From assembly GCF_018882445.1 (NCBI RefSeq), contig NZ_JACVOM010000003.1, positions 62,001-126,000 on the forward strand: a stretch of 64,000 nt of DNA, in the 5' to 3' direction. The notes below the pieces were generated by a model. It had not been told where the DNA came from. It did not search any database and saw only the letters and a program-made list of their open reading frames with translations. The DNA comes from Polynucleobacter sp. 15G-AUS-farblos. GTDB taxonomy: Bacteria > Pseudomonadota > Gammaproteobacteria > Burkholderiales > Burkholderiaceae. Positions 57,568-61,778 of this stretch are shown piece after piece; the stretch's first letter is position 1, and each line of letters starts with the position of its first letter. A program made the position numbers and the translations under genes.

Positions 57568-57676
57568 TCCTTCTCCTATGTTAGTAAGTGTTAACTAATT
57601 AAAAAAACCAATATAAATCAATGCTTTATAATCTCTTCACACGGAAGCTAAGGGAAAATAGTCATAAAACCATCTT

Positions 57677-57703
57677 TTAGCACTCGCGTGTAGGGAGTGC
57701 TGA
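57677..57703 (-). promoter_or_regulatory. CIRCE operator (HrcA-binding site) of groES-groEL
   Basis: TTAGCACTC, nine bases, GAGTGCTGA: one mismatch to the established CIRCE consensus TTAGCACTC-N9-GAGTGCTAA. It abuts and overlaps the -10 element of the groES promoter, so bound HrcA would block initiation. hrcA itself is at 12207-13217. Confidence 0.95.
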
Positions 57704-57791: not shown

Positions 57792-57807
57792 GTAGGACGA
57801 TTCCTAC
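57792..57807 (+). promoter_or_regulatory. Inverted repeat GTAGGA-CGAT-TCCTAC in the signalling operon leader
   Basis: Perfect 6-base arms with a 4-base loop, about 76 bases before the first start codon. Could be an operator or an RNA hairpin in the leader; no T-run follows. Confidence 0.4.
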
Positions 57808-57883
57808 AGATAAATCAGCCTTAAGCCCTTACCGCTCCAATCCGTCCTGCCTAGACTGGACAGTCACAGATTGGAGAATGCTG

Positions 57884-58720
57884 ATGAGCCCGAAATCCCG
57901 GCTGTACACGCTTGTAAAGGCATGGAAGAACAAACCCTTCCAAGAAGTACGAGACGCCTGTGGCGAAACCTGGCTTGGCTTAGACAGCCAAGCCCTCGAA
58001 GAACATCAATCCTGGTCCAAACGACAAGCGATTGGCCATGAACCCATTTTTAACTGCAAGGGCACAAAACTGACCGGATCTTTATTTAGACCATTAATGA
58101 GCGCAACCGATACGCAATTACTCCGCCTTTTTATGGAAGGCTTGGATAGCGTGACTTATTGGTATCGCGGTGGCCGCATGATTCCAGGGATACTGCCATT
58201 CCCAGCCCATGCCTTAGCTTCGAGTGAATACATCGATGCGCTCTCAGATCTCATTCTCAATTCTCGCTTACCGGTTGGCCTGGTAACACTGGGCATTCAA
58301 TCCCTACCCGAACCCCATTTAGAGAGCGCATGCAAAGAAGGTCTGTTGCGACTTCGCCGTTTAGGAGTGTTAATACACTTGCTGCAGTTTTCAGGGAGCG
58401 CAAGTCAGTTGCAATGGTTAGAAGAATTACAACTAGAGGGCGTACATATTGATATGGCGCACTTTCGACAATCTCCATTACCGCAAACACTCTTATCTCA
58501 ATTGCGCCAATCCAAATCTGCTAGAACGCAAATCTATGCCAGCAACTTAACTTTAGTAAAAGATTTAAGTAGCGCCTCTGTCATGCAAGTAGATCACTGT
58601 TACGGCGGCTTAATGATGCCAGCGCTTAGCCGCCATCAAATGCTCCAGATCAACAATAGCCAAATTGCTAAAGCCATTTTTTCGCTTCATCCTCATCCAC
58701 AACCAAACGGAGACAAGTAA
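57884..58720 (+). CDS. Degenerate EAL-domain protein (probably not a phosphodiesterase)
   Basis: 278 residues resembling an EAL fold throughout: HEPIFNCKGTKLTG (52-65) matches the usual QPI-x-G start, LRRLGVLIHLLQFSGSASQL (157-176) matches the strand before the DDFGTG loop, GVHIDMAHF (186-194) the KID strand, and DHCYGGLMMP (237-246) the QGY-x-RP end. The catalytic residues are lost: LFRPL replaces EALxR and LQFSGS replaces DDFGTG. Binding or scaffolding is more likely than c-di-GMP hydrolysis. I start at ATG 57884 because GGAG lies 7 bases upstream; ATG 57878 would leave no spacing. Overlaps the regulator gene by one base (TAATG). Confidence 0.72.
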   Translation: MSPKSRLYTLVKAWKNKPFQEVRDACGETWLGLDSQALEEHQSWSKRQAIGHEPIFNCKGTKLTGSLFRPLMSATDTQLLRLFMEGLDSVTYWYRGGRMIPGILPFPAHALASSEYIDALSDLILNSRLPVGLVTLGIQSLPEPHLESACKEGLLRLRRLGVLIHLLQFSGSASQLQWLEELQLEGVHIDMAHFRQSPLPQTLLSQLRQSKSARTQIYASNLTLVKDLSSASVMQVDHCYGGLMMPALSRHQMLQINNSQIAKAIFSLHPHPQPNGDK

Positions 58721-59343
58721 TGAGAAAACGCGTGATGTTGGTAGACGACCATCCGGCAATGCTGATGGCGCTTAAAAGTATGTTGCAAGATCAGCTGCTC
58801 TTTGAGATTGCGGGGCAATCTCAGAATGGCGAAGAGTGTCTCAGGTCCATCAAAGAAGTTAATCCCAATATGATGATTCTGGATCTTGATATGCCCAAGA
58901 CCGATGGATTTGATGTTATCCGTCGTATTGGATTGATGTATCCCGACATTCGGATTCTGGTGCTCTCTAGTCTTGATGAAGCGGTCTACGGTGGCCGCGT
59001 GAGATCCCTGGGCGCCCATGGCTTTGTCAATAAAACAGCGGGTGCCGATGTCATCCTGGCAGCATGCGTCGCCATCTCTCAGGGATATAACTTTTTTACC
59101 CATGGAAAAAATGGCAATAGTTCATTGAGTGATAACGATAAGCTGGGACTCATCTCTGATCGTGAGCTGCAGGTCATGAAATATCTTGGCAAAGGCAATA
59201 CTAATCAACAGATATCAGACATGCTCCATATCAGCAATAAAACTGTAGCTACTTATAAAACGCGTGTCTTTGATAAGTTAGGCATTAACAATATTGCTGA
59301 CCTGATTTTATTTTGCCGCATGAATAACATCATCGAAAGCTAA
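58720..59343 (+). CDS. NarL/LuxR-family response regulator (BvgA/EvgA-like)
   Basis: Receiver domain (1-120) with acidic D9-D10, phosphoacceptor D55 in MILDLDMPKTDG and K105 in GFVNKTAG, then a LuxR-type helix-turn-helix (about 145-203: SDRELQVMKYLGKGNTNQQI, NKTVATYKTRVFDKLG). 207 residues, the size of BvgA and EvgA. It starts inside the stop of the EAL gene and is followed after 5 bases by the hybrid kinase, its expected partner. Target genes unknown; autoregulation via the inverted repeats upstream is possible. Confidence 0.92.
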   Translation: MRKRVMLVDDHPAMLMALKSMLQDQLLFEIAGQSQNGEECLRSIKEVNPNMMILDLDMPKTDGFDVIRRIGLMYPDIRILVLSSLDEAVYGGRVRSLGAHGFVNKTAGADVILAACVAISQGYNFFTHGKNGNSSLSDNDKLGLISDRELQVMKYLGKGNTNQQISDMLHISNKTVATYKTRVFDKLGINNIADLILFCRMNNIIES

Positions 59344-59348
59344 AGTCT

Positions 59349-61778
59349 GTGATGCATCGGTACACCATTCAATTCAGCTTGTTCATATGCTTACTTATAG
59401 CGGGGAGTGTTCAAGCAGAGTCTATGAGCCTATCTGAACAAAGGTGGATCGATGCCCATCCGATTGTGCGTTTTAGCATTCATGAAAAATATGCGCCTTA
59501 CCTTCATCAAGGTAAAGATCAAAATGACATGGGTATTTTTAGGGCGCTACTATCGCTCCTTGAAAAGAGAACGCAGCAGGTATTTGTTCCAGCCTGGAGA
59601 AAGACAGATCAAGAGGGACTACAGCAATTAGCTAATGGCGAAGTAGATTTCATCATTGACCCGCCAGCAGATGAAGCATTTTTACGATTTGGCTCGCTTT
59701 CAGAGGCAATCTTCTGGGGGCATGACGCCGTACTGACAAAAACCTCAGAGTCTGAGCAATTACTACATCCATCCAAAGTCGCTTATTTTGAACGTGGCTT
59801 TGAAAATCCCCCAAGTCAAAATCAACAGAGTGCTCTGACATCCAGTCATACAGACAAATTATTAGCTGACCTATTAAATAACAACATACAGGGGCTTGTT
59901 ATGCCCATCAGGCTTGCACATCATCTGATTGCTCAGATGGGTGATGGCAAGATTCAAGTAGATGGCCTCTATAACAGAGACCCCTTTCCTTATCGCTGGT
60001 TGATTGGACATCAAGATGCACCACTTCATGATGTACTAGGTGGTTTTTTAAACTCTTTAGACCCGATCGAATCACGGCAGTTGTTCTCACTAGACTCGAG
60101 CTCACTGGAGCCTCAAGTCTCTCCCATGAGGACTTCACTTCCATGGAGCATCAGCTTGGCACTACTAATTGCTGGGGCTATATTGATGTGGCACTTTCAT
60201 CGCAAGCAGTCGATTCAAGAACAAGAAACTGCCATGCTGATCTCATCCAAAGAAAATGCGGAGAAAGCCAATGCAGCCAAGTCTGCTTTTCTGGCTACGA
60301 TGAGCCATGAAATTCGGACACCCATGAATGCCATTCTCGGGGTTCAAGAGTTACTCCTGACCAGTCAACAATTTCCTTCAAGTGAAAAGCCCTTATTACG
60401 CAGCGCGCATGCCTCTGCAGAATCGCTCCTGGGCATTCTGAATCAAGTCTTAGATCTTTCAAAAATTGAGGCAGGCAAACTCACACTGCATCTAGAACCA
60501 TATAACCTCAATACCTTGATTGATGAGATTGATTCAGCATTCTCTACAGTAGCAATCAAACATCATCTACAACTACACACCATCAAAGACCCAAAGATTG
60601 CAGAGGTCTTGATGATGGATGCATTGAGGCTACGTCAAATATTGCAAAACCTCATTAGTAATGCGATTAAATTTACCGAAAAAGGGGAGATTTACTTTTC
60701 TATCACCATCCTGGCCGACGATCACGCTGGTCAGTTGATTGAATTTAGAGTGATTGATACCGGGATTGGCATGGGCGCAGAAGAAATTGAGCTCGCCCTG
60801 CAAGCCTTTGAGCAAGTACCCAATAAGGGTGACAGTAATCTCCATGAGCAGCAGCGGGGAACGGGCCTTGGGCTAACGATCACCAATCATCTGGTCAACT
60901 CCATGAACAGCCAGCTTTTCTTTGAGAGTGCGCCTGGCTTTGGAAGTAATGTGCATTTCTCAGTTGCCTTTCCACGCACGACTATTGCAGCTAACCGCAG
61001 CAACTTTAGCTCAGAGCAATTGCCAGTCTCCAGAAAAATGCTTACTAAAAATTCTGCAGAACAAACTATTCATGCTCTCGTTGTAGAAGATCACCCTGCT
61101 AGCCGACAGATCATCTCCTTACAATTACAAGCCCTGGGCATTGAAGTCTCTGTTTGTGAGTGCGCGCATGCTGCGCTTGAGCTGATTGCTCAAAAACATT
61201 TTGACTTAGTGCTAACTGATCAATCTATTCCAGGGATGCAGGGCTCTGAGCTTGCTAAATATCTGCGCTCTTGCGGTCATCGAGATCTCATCATTATTGG
61301 AGTGACCGCCGATATTTATGCGCTGGATTCACGCCATCAATTTTTAGCAGCTGGGATGAATGGCGTTCTGATCAAACCGCTTAGTCTAATGACCTTAGAA
61401 AATGAACTGTCGCGCTATTTCAAATCAGTTACCGCACCGCTTTCCGAATCTTTGGAAGAGTATTCCTTTGAGGCTTTTGCCAATCTCTTACGAAATGATC
61501 CCAAGCAGATCTTGATCCTCTTAGAGGAAATTGAGCGCGTCCATGATGAAGTACTGAGTAAGCTAGTTACCGGCACTCCTAGTGAAGTTGAATTTAAAAG
61601 TATGGTGCATCTCATTAAAGGGGGCGCCCAATTACTTCAGGCCAAGACCTTTATTGAAAAATGCCAAGCATTAGAAAAAGATGGCCCTCTCACCCCCAGA
61701 ATCCAGGCCTTCAGGCAATTGCTTGAAGAGCAAAACGGCATACTACACACCTATCAATCTCGCTATCGCCACTTTTGA
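59349..61778 (+). CDS. Hybrid sensor histidine kinase with phosphorelay (BvgS/EvgS-like)
   Basis: 809 residues, domains in order: signal peptide (1 to about 23); one periplasmic Venus-flytrap domain of SBP_bac_3 type (about 28-255); membrane helix (about 265-283); short linker; HisKA with H320 in MSHEIRTPMNAILG; HATPase with N437 (LISNAIKF), DTGIGM (470-475) and GTGLGL (504-509); receiver with D624 in LTDQSIPGM and K676; HPt with H754 in HLIKGG. This gives a full His-Asp-His-Asp relay to the adjacent regulator. BvgS and EvgS have two flytrap domains and a PAS domain; this one has a single flytrap and no room for PAS. A small periplasmic ligand is the likely signal, identity unknown. Confidence 0.93.
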   Translation: MMHRYTIQFSLFICLLIAGSVQAESMSLSEQRWIDAHPIVRFSIHEKYAPYLHQGKDQNDMGIFRALLSLLEKRTQQVFVPAWRKTDQEGLQQLANGEVDFIIDPPADEAFLRFGSLSEAIFWGHDAVLTKTSESEQLLHPSKVAYFERGFENPPSQNQQSALTSSHTDKLLADLLNNNIQGLVMPIRLAHHLIAQMGDGKIQVDGLYNRDPFPYRWLIGHQDAPLHDVLGGFLNSLDPIESRQLFSLDSSSLEPQVSPMRTSLPWSISLALLIAGAILMWHFHRKQSIQEQETAMLISSKENAEKANAAKSAFLATMSHEIRTPMNAILGVQELLLTSQQFPSSEKPLLRSAHASAESLLGILNQVLDLSKIEAGKLTLHLEPYNLNTLIDEIDSAFSTVAIKHHLQLHTIKDPKIAEVLMMDALRLRQILQNLISNAIKFTEKGEIYFSITILADDHAGQLIEFRVIDTGIGMGAEEIELALQAFEQVPNKGDSNLHEQQRGTGLGLTITNHLVNSMNSQLFFESAPGFGSNVHFSVAFPRTTIAANRSNFSSEQLPVSRKMLTKNSAEQTIHALVVEDHPASRQIISLQLQALGIEVSVCECAHAALELIAQKHFDLVLTDQSIPGMQGSELAKYLRSCGHRDLIIIGVTADIYALDSRHQFLAAGMNGVLIKPLSLMTLENELSRYFKSVTAPLSESLEEYSFEAFANLLRNDPKQILILLEEIERVHDEVLSKLVTGTPSEVEFKSMVHLIKGGAQLLQAKTFIEKCQALEKDGPLTPRIQAFRQLLEEQNGILHTYQSRYRHF

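Follow-up and report, generated by a model that had tools for sequence, protein, structure and literature searches.

A conserved Polynucleobacter operon encoding a degenerate EAL-like protein, an EvgA/BvgA-type regulator and a reduced BvgS-like kinase, with predicted BvgA-like operators

What kind of regulatory system is encoded by the compact operon that joins an EAL-like protein to a two-component relay in the freshwater bacterium Polynucleobacter, and does its likeness to the Bvg system of Bordetella go beyond gene architecture? The operon lies at 57884-61778 of a 64,000-nt window, by which we mean the whole stretch of DNA analysed (Polynucleobacter sp. 15G-AUS-farblos, GCF_018882445.1, contig NZ_JACVOM010000003.1, positions 62,001-126,000). 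The first-pass annotation had described three overlapping or nearly abutting genes, the first coupled to the second by TAATG, and the ORF check returned exactly this: three plus-strand ORFs for an EAL-like protein, a NarL-type regulator and a hybrid kinase, in that order, flanked by groES and dacB, with one base shared by the EAL and regulator genes (Table 1). The groES, groEL, sucA, pilC, permease, alanine dehydrogenase and LMW phosphatase genes were named by eye, and these names are presumptive. For the EAL gene, the ATG at 57884 was preferred to the other in-frame ATG at 57878, because its Shine-Dalgarno sequence lies 7 nt away and the Met at this start is invariant in the aligned homologues (20/20 and 39/39). 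Rfam returned nothing at gathering threshold across the window, and a Polynucleobacter two-component locus was the subject of no title among the literature matches listed, in which subscription papers were thinly covered.

Table 1. Coordinates of the operon genes, protein domains and predicted promoter elements in the window
Feature	Position	Strand	Remarks
Predicted operator dyad	57792..57807	+	GTAGGACGATTCCTAC; heptads 57793-57806
Predicted weak second dimer site	57815..57828	+	placed from geometry; centre 22 bp downstream of the first; abuts -35
Predicted -35	57829..57834	+	TTACCG
Predicted -10	57852..57857	+	TAGACT; 17-bp spacer
Shine-Dalgarno of EAL gene	57873..57876	+	GGAG
EAL-like gene	57884..58720	+	278 aa from ATG 57884
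TAATG	58718..58722	+	EAL-gene TAA overlaps regulator ATG
Regulator gene	58720..59343	+	207 aa; NarL/FixJ-type; Response_reg + GerE
Hybrid histidine kinase gene	59349..61778	+	809 aa; GTG start; ATG at 59352
Predicted periplasmic Venus flytrap	59415..60104	+	SBP_bac_3-like; closest solved folds BvgS VFT2 (model)
Predicted long helix with transmembrane segment	60144..60227	+	runs straight into HisKA
HisKA + HATPase_c	60276..60968	+	
Kinase receiver domain	61077..61403	+	
HPt-like domain	61596..61727	+	HLIKGG; His in all homologues printed

The arrangement is not peculiar to this genome, a point on which the first-pass reading had depended. The order EAL gene, regulator, kinase recurs in each of the other 35 loci retrieved from the genus, counting G017, which retains only kinase remnants, and L067, where the contig ends within the EAL gene, and therefore is not a matter of chance. 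The EAL-like and regulator proteins were matched in 36 of 37 Polynucleobacter genomes, with four EAL copies broken, and the two genes overlap by 1 base in 60 and by 4 bases in 16 of 92 unique loci. Where the gene is complete on its contig, the EAL gene is disrupted in 5 of 98 loci; the kinase core is broken in 2 of 96, whereas all 98 regulator genes are intact. Not every locus therefore needs all three parts. Conservation of the order across Burkholderiaceae, which had also been raised, was established for the genus and not for the family as a whole; a distant genome (G151, locus L233) shares the order, but its EAL protein is intact.

The kinase comprises HisKA, HATPase_c, Response_reg and a weak Hpt match in Pfam (E 0.028), the last being clear in the homologue of locus L142 (2.6e-7). 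A single flytrap of about 230 residues lies ahead of the membrane helix, and among the matches ranked by Foldseek its model agrees best with BvgS VFT2 (3mpl, Z 19.4, rmsd 3.4, 223 aligned), with further matches to 3mpk (Z 19.1), 4q0c (18.4), RmcA (18.0) and EvgS (9ilw, 17.0). Pfam SBP_bac_3 matches 7 of 25 kinase homologues (best 0.0015) and not the window kinase. No PAS match was found by Pfam up to E 1, HisKA beginning at residue 310, directly after the membrane helix. The kinase core scores are 200, 203 and 187 bits for the BvgS-like L233 and L234 and for EvgS, against 150, 146 and 137 for BarA, TorS and RcsC; the best NCBIfam model is TorS, not EvgS. In the deep Polynucleobacter clade the kinase lacks the large periplasmic sensor domain. 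The modelling supports a BvgS-type fold for the predicted sensor, in keeping with the BvgS/EvgS-type kinase first proposed, and the kinase would be a reduced member of that type, with a single flytrap and no PAS.

The regulator had been assigned to the BvgA/EvgA type. Its best NCBIfam model is EvgA (138.9 bits, under the cut-off of 251), it is 32% identical to E. coli EvgA over 201 aa, and its recognition helix is EvgA-like. In an unrooted tree of 33 rows, built without BvgA and with EvgA on a long branch, it groups with EvgA and FimZ, apart from UvrY, RcsB and NarL, with support of 92/94, just under the tool's star threshold. These comparisons support placing it, as judged from sequence, in the EvgA/FimZ group of BvgA/EvgA-type response regulators. 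Its median omega is 0.004 in one clade.

The EAL-like protein needs the more careful reading. Against the EAL profile PF00563 the window protein stays below threshold (E 0.0013, 18.6 bits, cut-off 31.3), but 29 of its 39 homologues match (best E 2.5e-8), and its model superposes on solved EAL domains (Foldseek; RocR 3sy8, Z 23.5, rmsd 2.3 A, 203 residues); the EAL assignment is therefore firmer at the family level than for the single protein. The Pfam search gave no Response_reg match in it, and the N-terminal motif PKSRLYxLVxxW is conserved. That the domain is degenerate, as first noted, is borne out across the family, which keeps the barrel: in all 39 aligned homologues the Glu of ELTE is replaced by Gly, the Lys of KID by His or Tyr and the Gln of VQG by Tyr or Phe, and the Glu of VEG and the first Asp of DDFG are gone, while the Asn of VNI is retained in 1 of 39 and the QP column holds Gln in 9 of 39, within an uncertain part of the alignment. 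One alignment sets an invariant Glu55 (in EPIF, 39/39) opposite the EAL-motif Glu, across a gap judged misplaced, and on that alignment one key EAL residue would be kept. The protein is thus best described, from its alignments, as a predicted EAL barrel minus most catalytic residues, the status of the EAL-motif Glu being uncertain.

This EAL-like family was met only in Polynucleobacter and in MAGs near the genus, in searches that included one single-peptide-pattern scan, and related loci outside the genus encode intact EAL or REC-EAL proteins. Among ten regions around the nearest non-genus regulators, an EAL-profile ORF lies near the regulator in five (L224-L227, L233) and is absent in five (L228-L232), with a flytrap kinase in L233 only; of seven further regions from one other family, L234 alone has a BvgS-like kinase with an EAL ORF. 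The suggestion of an ancestral or streamlined system holds as far as the reduction of the kinase goes, but this distribution lends no support to "ancestral".

Upstream of the operon, a predicted promoter shares the geometry of BvgA-activated promoters, with an inverted-heptad dyad, a 22-bp step and a weak -35. Of 65 own-operon upstream regions, 54 carry the dyad, and its TTCCTAC stands in all 49 aligned close-clade rows; the distance from the dyad centre to the -10 is 52 in 54/54, and the -35 begins TTAC in 52 of the 54 dyad-bearing loci. The predicted transcription start of the operon is near 57864. From this constant distance it follows that a dimer 22 bp downstream would abut the -35, as in the BvgA geometry, in which dimers occupy inverted heptads at a 22-bp step (PMC7250471). 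The dyad is absent upstream of the operon in 11 deepest-clade loci. The published BvgA 14-mer reaches p <= 0.02 in just 2 of 65 own-operon regions, where the left half-site deviates from it, and because the 14-mer by itself is not significant there, the case for this operator rests on its phylogenetic constancy. In the window genome the perfect dyad has one copy, and with up to two mismatches it gives 30/30 matches against 99/91 for a reversed-pattern control, fewer than that control, so no large regulon is shown; across the window the published Pfha 14-mer finds a single match, itself with 3 mismatches, where 8.8 were expected.

The candidate target with the most constant site is one orthologous HTH_17 gene, upstream of which TAAGAAATTTCCTA, published as the BvgA site of Pfha, is found again: in 12 close-clade genomes, reached through gene orthology and not by motif search, the promoters agree with it at 13/14 positions in 9 and 12/14 in 2, and in 8 deep or intermediate genomes, picked by motif search, at 14/14 in 4, 13/14 in 3 and 12/14 in 1. 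In genome G000 the HTH_17 promoter is at about 34090-34125 of C26. The site reaches p <= 0.02 (100 shuffles) in 11/12 close and 8/8 deep or intermediate genomes; a ninth of the latter (G015) has no site with <=1 mismatch at the gene. None of 620 control stretches in the window reaches 12, and of 4170 from 77 Polynucleobacter loci 6 reach 12 and 1 reaches 13. The most constant target of the relay is therefore likely, on these predicted sites, to be a second regulator, HTH_17.

We consider it probable that the operon encodes an autoregulated phosphorelay of the Bvg/Evg type, with BvgA-like operators, an HTH_17 target and an EAL adaptor. The periplasmic flytrap would drive a His-Asp-His phosphorelay within the hybrid kinase, as its domains suggest, and the kinase would phosphorylate the NarL-type regulator, whose dimers, 22 bp apart, would bind BvgA-like inverted TTTCYTA heptads. 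In the close and intermediate clades the regulator may activate its own operon through the weak -35/-10 promoter, and it would also control the conserved HTH_17 regulator gene. The EAL protein, produced first and coupled to the regulator, would most likely serve as a non-enzymatic adaptor of the pathway, as proposed for BvgR, and this is the least certain step.

Three other readings bear on parts of this scheme. The dyads could serve the HTH_17 protein itself as operators, or serve some unrelated regulator, with the phosphorelay regulator acting on other targets; the most constant site does lie upstream of the HTH_17 gene (19/20 genomes, p <= 0.02), as autoregulation would predict, and the phosphorelay operon of the deepest clade has no dyad. 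However, both the dyad sequence and the 22-bp tandem spacing agree with published BvgA sites, the EvgA-like recognition helix belongs to the phosphorelay regulator, and HTH_17 homologues outside the genus, which are distant and maybe not orthologues, have a site at p <= 0.02 in only 1 of 23, which makes such a reassignment unlikely. It is likewise improbable that the EAL protein still works through c-di-GMP, as a weak phosphodiesterase or c-di-GMP sensor in the manner of Roc1, where RocR, a REC-EAL phosphodiesterase, accompanies a BvgS-like kinase and an HTH regulator (PMC3083521). In favour of it, intact EAL or REC-EAL proteins stand beside such regulators in some related Burkholderiales loci, and the fold, possibly the EAL-motif Glu and, in a minority of homologues, the QP Gln are kept; against it, those metal and catalytic positions that align clearly are substituted family-wide, and the protein has no REC domain. 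A decaying EAL gene, carried along without a part in the relay, would fit the disruptions in some loci and the 24-28% identity of the window protein to deep-clade homologues. Selection on the gene is, however, purifying (median omega 0.099 for the 67 close pairs among 2016), and the gene is matched nearly genus-wide and in most loci overlaps the regulator start with its stop, so that we regard this reading as very unlikely.

Taken with the preferred reading of an autoregulated phosphorelay, the comparison with Bvg is supported by more than architecture, namely by sensor fold, regulator group, operator and promoter geometry. With BvgAS the operon shares a flytrap hybrid kinase and a NarL-type regulator, and with BvgA the inverted TTTCYTA heptads and 22-bp geometry, for Polynucleobacter predicted from sequence. 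EvgS has two flytraps and, at 1197 aa in E. coli, exceeds the Polynucleobacter kinase; EvgA falls in the same tree group as the regulator and EvgS, too, has a flytrap sensor, whereas the annotated features of the E. coli region fetched include no EAL gene, and at the evgA-emrK region the operator 14-mer reaches no more than 10/14. A PAS domain is stated for EvgS (PMC5573083). BvgS, in contrast to the single flytrap without PAS seen here, has two in tandem, and PAS is missing in about 30% of two-flytrap BvgS homologues (PMC5829827).

The EAL-like protein resembles BvgR, which lacks 12 of 13 catalytic residues (PMC11537037), as a stand-alone EAL domain without catalytic residues, the comparison being by fold and residue loss and not by sequence homology. 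The gene is upstream of, co-directional with and overlapping the regulator gene, whereas bvgR is a separate unit immediately downstream of bvgAS (PMC1557856). Pseudomonas aeruginosa RocS1-RocA1-RocR likewise unites a BvgS-homologous kinase, an HTH regulator and an EAL protein in one locus (PMC3083521), although RocR is a receiver-EAL phosphodiesterase and the Polynucleobacter protein has no receiver and has mostly lost its catalytic residues. The BvgSA systems of Cupriavidus and Bordetella petrii have BvgS equivalents without the large periplasmic domain (PMC2864759), as does the deep Polynucleobacter clade, but the available part of that account mentions no linked degenerate EAL protein. Locus L234, tried as a bvgAS-bvgR counterpart, proved to be a BvgS-like locus with REC-EAL beside polysaccharide genes, not recognisably bvgAS-bvgR.

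It is possible, and we hold this tentatively, that Bordetella and freshwater Polynucleobacter have the recognition code of BvgA and its promoter geometry in common, that the relay heads a small HTH_17 cascade and not a virulence regulon, and that the dead EAL protein is an in-operon, BvgR-like, c-di-GMP-independent adaptor. If so, Polynucleobacter could be a model for the unsolved mechanism of BvgR, whose action without catalytic residues has been called poorly understood (PMC12805831), and the genus-wide operon of a dead EAL protein with a BvgA-like regulator would open that question to tests in bacteria that are not known to be harmful, and so outside a pathogen. The four genomes that match all 14 bases of the Pfha site give a direct, falsifiable prediction of regulator targets, and a near-frozen regulator beside a faster-changing sensor, whose domain is missing in another clade, would suit changing input with fixed output.

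Several leads were set aside. An RNA hairpin (CTCCAATC/GATTGGAG) predicted across the ribosome-binding site of the EAL gene gives a good fold (z -2.6), but its pairing is unsupported: 87.5% of cells are paired against 87.1% in shuffled controls, the pairing partner is missing in the L134-L142 group, and the stretch overlaps the predicted promoter. A whole-genome dyad regulon was rejected, matches in the window genome not exceeding the reversed-pattern control; the extended dyad pattern, searched in 12 genomes, stays close to the control in most of them and exceeds it in G027 and G005. The CorC-pilB promoter has the site in 2 deep genomes and at p <= 0.02 in 0/11 close genomes. At dprA the site reaches p <= 0.02 in 4/15, and dprA stays a candidate only, because the longest ORF of the adjacent gene also covers the site in L253, L254 and L256. 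The sites in L261 and L263-L267 lie inside ORFs and were therefore dismissed as chance. Single-genome sites precede a 379-aa ORF by 86 bp in L260 and a 552-aa ORF by 77 bp in L262.

The operon belongs to the Bvg/Evg/Roc kind, that of BvgAS with BvgR in Bordetella, EvgAS in Escherichia coli and Roc1 with RocR in Pseudomonas aeruginosa, and its parts are ordinary; what is unusual is a dead EAL protein encoded by the first gene, a predicted BvgA-type site that recurs exactly in another genus, and a near-frozen regulator beneath a variable sensor. An EAL-like gene, a NarL-type response regulator gene and a hybrid kinase gene form a co-directional trio in the window, flanked by divergent groES and dacB. 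The stop/start overlap of the EAL and regulator genes (TAATG) claimed by the first-pass annotation is present, such an overlap being of one base in 60/92 loci and of four in 16/92, and the EAL start at 57884 is better than that at 57878 because a GGAG lies 7 nt away and the Met is invariant in alignments.

Coordinates of the features discussed (window positions unless a contig or locus is named)
Feature	Position	Strand	Remark
EAL-like gene	57884-58720	+	first gene
NarL-type regulator gene	58720-59343	+
Hybrid kinase gene	59349-61778	+
GGAG	57873-57876
N-terminal motif PKSRLYxLVxxWxxKP	57884-57940		39 homologues, alignment A2
TTTTAGCACTC-N9-GAGTGCTGA	57675-57703		between groES and EAL gene
HTH_17 gene of window genome (L278)	G000:C26:33320-34015
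EAL, NarL regulator and BvgS-like kinase of G151	L233 6454-11931		another family

The EAL protein and the regulator were each matched in 36 of 37 genus genomes, the exception for both being the 83% complete G022, and of the 36 EAL copies, four (G001, G017, G023, G035) are broken and a fifth is truncated at the end of its contig. The three-gene order likewise extends beyond this genome to 35 of 35 fetched genus loci, G017 having no more than remnants of the kinase; groES was seen to adjoin the trio in 29 of these loci, and dacB to follow it in 35. Of 113 pooled loci, 100 remained once those with identical regulator DNA were merged. Wherever the regulator is complete it is intact, in 98/98 (leaving out L141, with no regulator on its contig, and the cut L150); the EAL gene is intact in 93/98 and broken in 5/98 (two more cut). 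With 480 aa as the minimum length, the kinase core is intact in 94/96 and missing or broken in 2/96 (L066, L052; four more cut). Some of these breaks may be assembly errors. In L066, from the 1.55 Mb genome G017, the EAL gene is broken and the kinase core deleted into dacB, with the regulator intact and the upstream operator retained; in L129 (P. necessarius PPGSP2) disruption affects dacB and the sensor part of the kinase, the EAL and regulator genes being intact. The sequence TTTTAGCACTC-N9-GAGTGCTGA between groES and the EAL gene resembles a CIRCE element.

The EAL assignment holds at the family level, as 29 of 39 homologues match PF00563 (best 2.5e-8), the match of the window protein itself falling under the cut-off. 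The family profile matches nine solved sequences at E <= 0.01, including RocR, MorA and the Thiobacillus protein 2r6o, and the AlphaFold model (pLDDT 80.3) aligns to RocR with Z 23.5 and rmsd 2.3 over 203 residues. The protein is indeed degenerate, with catalytic positions gone across the well-aligned part of the 39-homologue alignment: the ELTE Glu is replaced by Gly, the KID Lys by His or Tyr and the VQG Gln by Tyr or Phe, and the VEG Glu and first DDFG Asp are lost, each in 39/39, while the second DDFG Asp is retained in 6/39 and the VNI Asn in 1/39. The QP and EAL motifs are the uncertain part, where the alignment puts an invariant EPIF Glu (residue 55) against the EAL-motif Glu in 39/39 across a 7-residue gap; the model strands suggest that EPIF corresponds to QPIV and not to the EAL motif. 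The N-terminal motif is strongly conserved, lies outside the barrel and is of low confidence in the model; it is a possible docking or membrane-binding segment. Scanning the collection with one peptide pattern gave 77 family loci, from Polynucleobacter or MAGs titled Burkholderiaceae, Betaproteobacteria or uncultured beta proteobacterium, and a search with the family profile through 300 genomes of the order picked up EAL domains outside the genus in 12, almost always within large proteins.

The top NCBIfam model for the regulator is EvgA, whose score of 138.9 bits is below the equivalog cut-off of 251. In an unrooted tree of 33 rows the Polynucleobacter clade (100/99) falls inside an EvgA/FimZ/Burkholderiales group (92/94, not starred), apart from UvrY, RcsB and NarL, in agreement with the first-pass annotation, and two Burkholderiales regulators of this group (L233, L234) adjoin BvgS-like kinases. 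The nearest regulators outside the genus are 38-43% identical; four of these (L224-L227) have a divergent 408-423-aa EAL ORF adjoining, with REC and an intact-looking EAL in both of two ORFs checked, and five other regions around nearest outside regulators lack an EAL ORF. The trio of G151 has the order and strand of the window operon, with an intact EAL (full profile match, E 1e-50) and a kinase with two flytraps and PAS, and in L234 a BvgS-like kinase and its regulator are paired with a REC-EAL protein whose DDFG Asp residues are gone. Linkage of EAL proteins to relays of this type is therefore a recurring but not a general feature of the order.

The kinase sensor model (pLDDT 84.2) best matches BvgS VFT2 (3mpl, Z 19.4; 3mpk, 19.1; 4q0c, 18.4), followed by RmcA (18.0), engineered glutamine-binding proteins and EvgS (9ilw, 17.0); rows within 1 of each other count as tied, so 4q0c and RmcA are tied. 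The window kinase has one flytrap and no PAS, a membrane helix being followed by HisKA. In the deep-clade kinases L152, L149 and L147 HisKA begins at residue 47-50, leaving no room for a periplasmic domain, which L073 and L076 likewise lack; BvgS equivalents without the periplasmic part are described for Cupriavidus and B. petrii in the accessible part of one report (PMC2864759). Median dN/dS in the close clade, from the 67 of 2016 pairs with all dS at 0.05-1.2, was as follows: regulator 0.004, EAL 0.099, sensor 0.149, cytoplasmic part of the kinase 0.097. The protein sequence of the regulator has hardly changed in this clade, its identity to the window (91-99%) being close to that of GroEL (95-99%). 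Within the deep clade the regulator has a median identity of 74%, GroEL one of 96.8%. The window regulator is only 53-60% identical to those of the deep and intermediate clades that lack the flytrap sensor.

The dyad GTAGG-N4-TTCCTAC, a predicted operator, lies upstream of the EAL gene in 54 of 65 upstream regions, with one-base variants in its left half, and is missing in 11/65, all deep clade; G003, G015 and G025 also carry it, ~84-102 bp upstream of their own EAL genes. Its centre is 52 bases before TA[GA]ACT in 54/54 dyad-bearing regions, and TTAC.., the predicted -35, is placed 17 bp before TA[GA]ACT in 52/54. In the available text on BvgA, head-to-head dimers bind at 22-bp intervals, the final dimer lying directly against a poor -35, and the Pfha primary site is TAAGAAATTTCCTA (PMC7250471), inverted TTTCCTA heptads being typical sites in an excerpt of another report (PMC4314077). 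A second dimer 22 bp downstream of the dyad would end exactly at the predicted -35.

Searching 41 genomes of the genus for the dyad, at most one mismatch being allowed, led to the promoter of an HTH_17 gene in eight deep/intermediate genomes. Its product is an excisionase-like protein of ~230 aa with a weak receiver-like C-terminus (PhoB-like, weakly, in the window genome), and orthologues were found by protein search in 12/12 close genomes. We scored TAAGAAATTTCCTA over ~200 bp upstream of genes, with p from 100 shuffles. The 12 close promoters, chosen independently of the motif, score 13/14 in nine (window genome included), 12 in two and 11 in one; the eight deep/intermediate promoters, chosen by a related pattern, score 14/14 in four, 13 in three and 12 in one, and p <= 0.02 holds in 11/12 and 8/8, respectively. 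The deep group has partly matching second sites 22 bp further on. Control stretches score 12 or more in 0/620 (window) and 6/4170 (77 Polynucleobacter loci), the CorC promoter control is significant in 0/11 close genomes, and HTH_17 homologues outside the genus are significant in 1/23. The gene divergent from HTH_17 resembles sucA where seen (L242, L244, L248-L252, L255, L268).

The analysis establishes how the genes are ordered, which domains they encode, the fold models, that the EAL protein has lost catalytic residues, the selection on the genes and that the motif is constant. Beyond this, we propose that phosphotransfer through the relay could reach the regulator, which may bind the dyads, autoactivate its own operon and drive a cascade to the HTH_17 gene, with the EAL protein possibly acting as an adaptor. 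BvgR, in the accessible portions of two reports, is described as likely inactive and as working via protein contacts by a poorly understood mechanism (PMC12805831; PMC11537037); the argument from BvgR to the EAL protein here is one of analogy, not of homology.

Further deep-clade sites precede a TonB-receptor/CorC-pilB pair (significant in 2/2), a small unknown gene (1/3, at 14/14) and a permease operon (BvgA-like sites in L257, L258 and L259; 2/3), and dprA is a weak candidate target (4/15). The genes behind the L257, L258 and L259 sites resemble an amino acid permease and alanine dehydrogenase.
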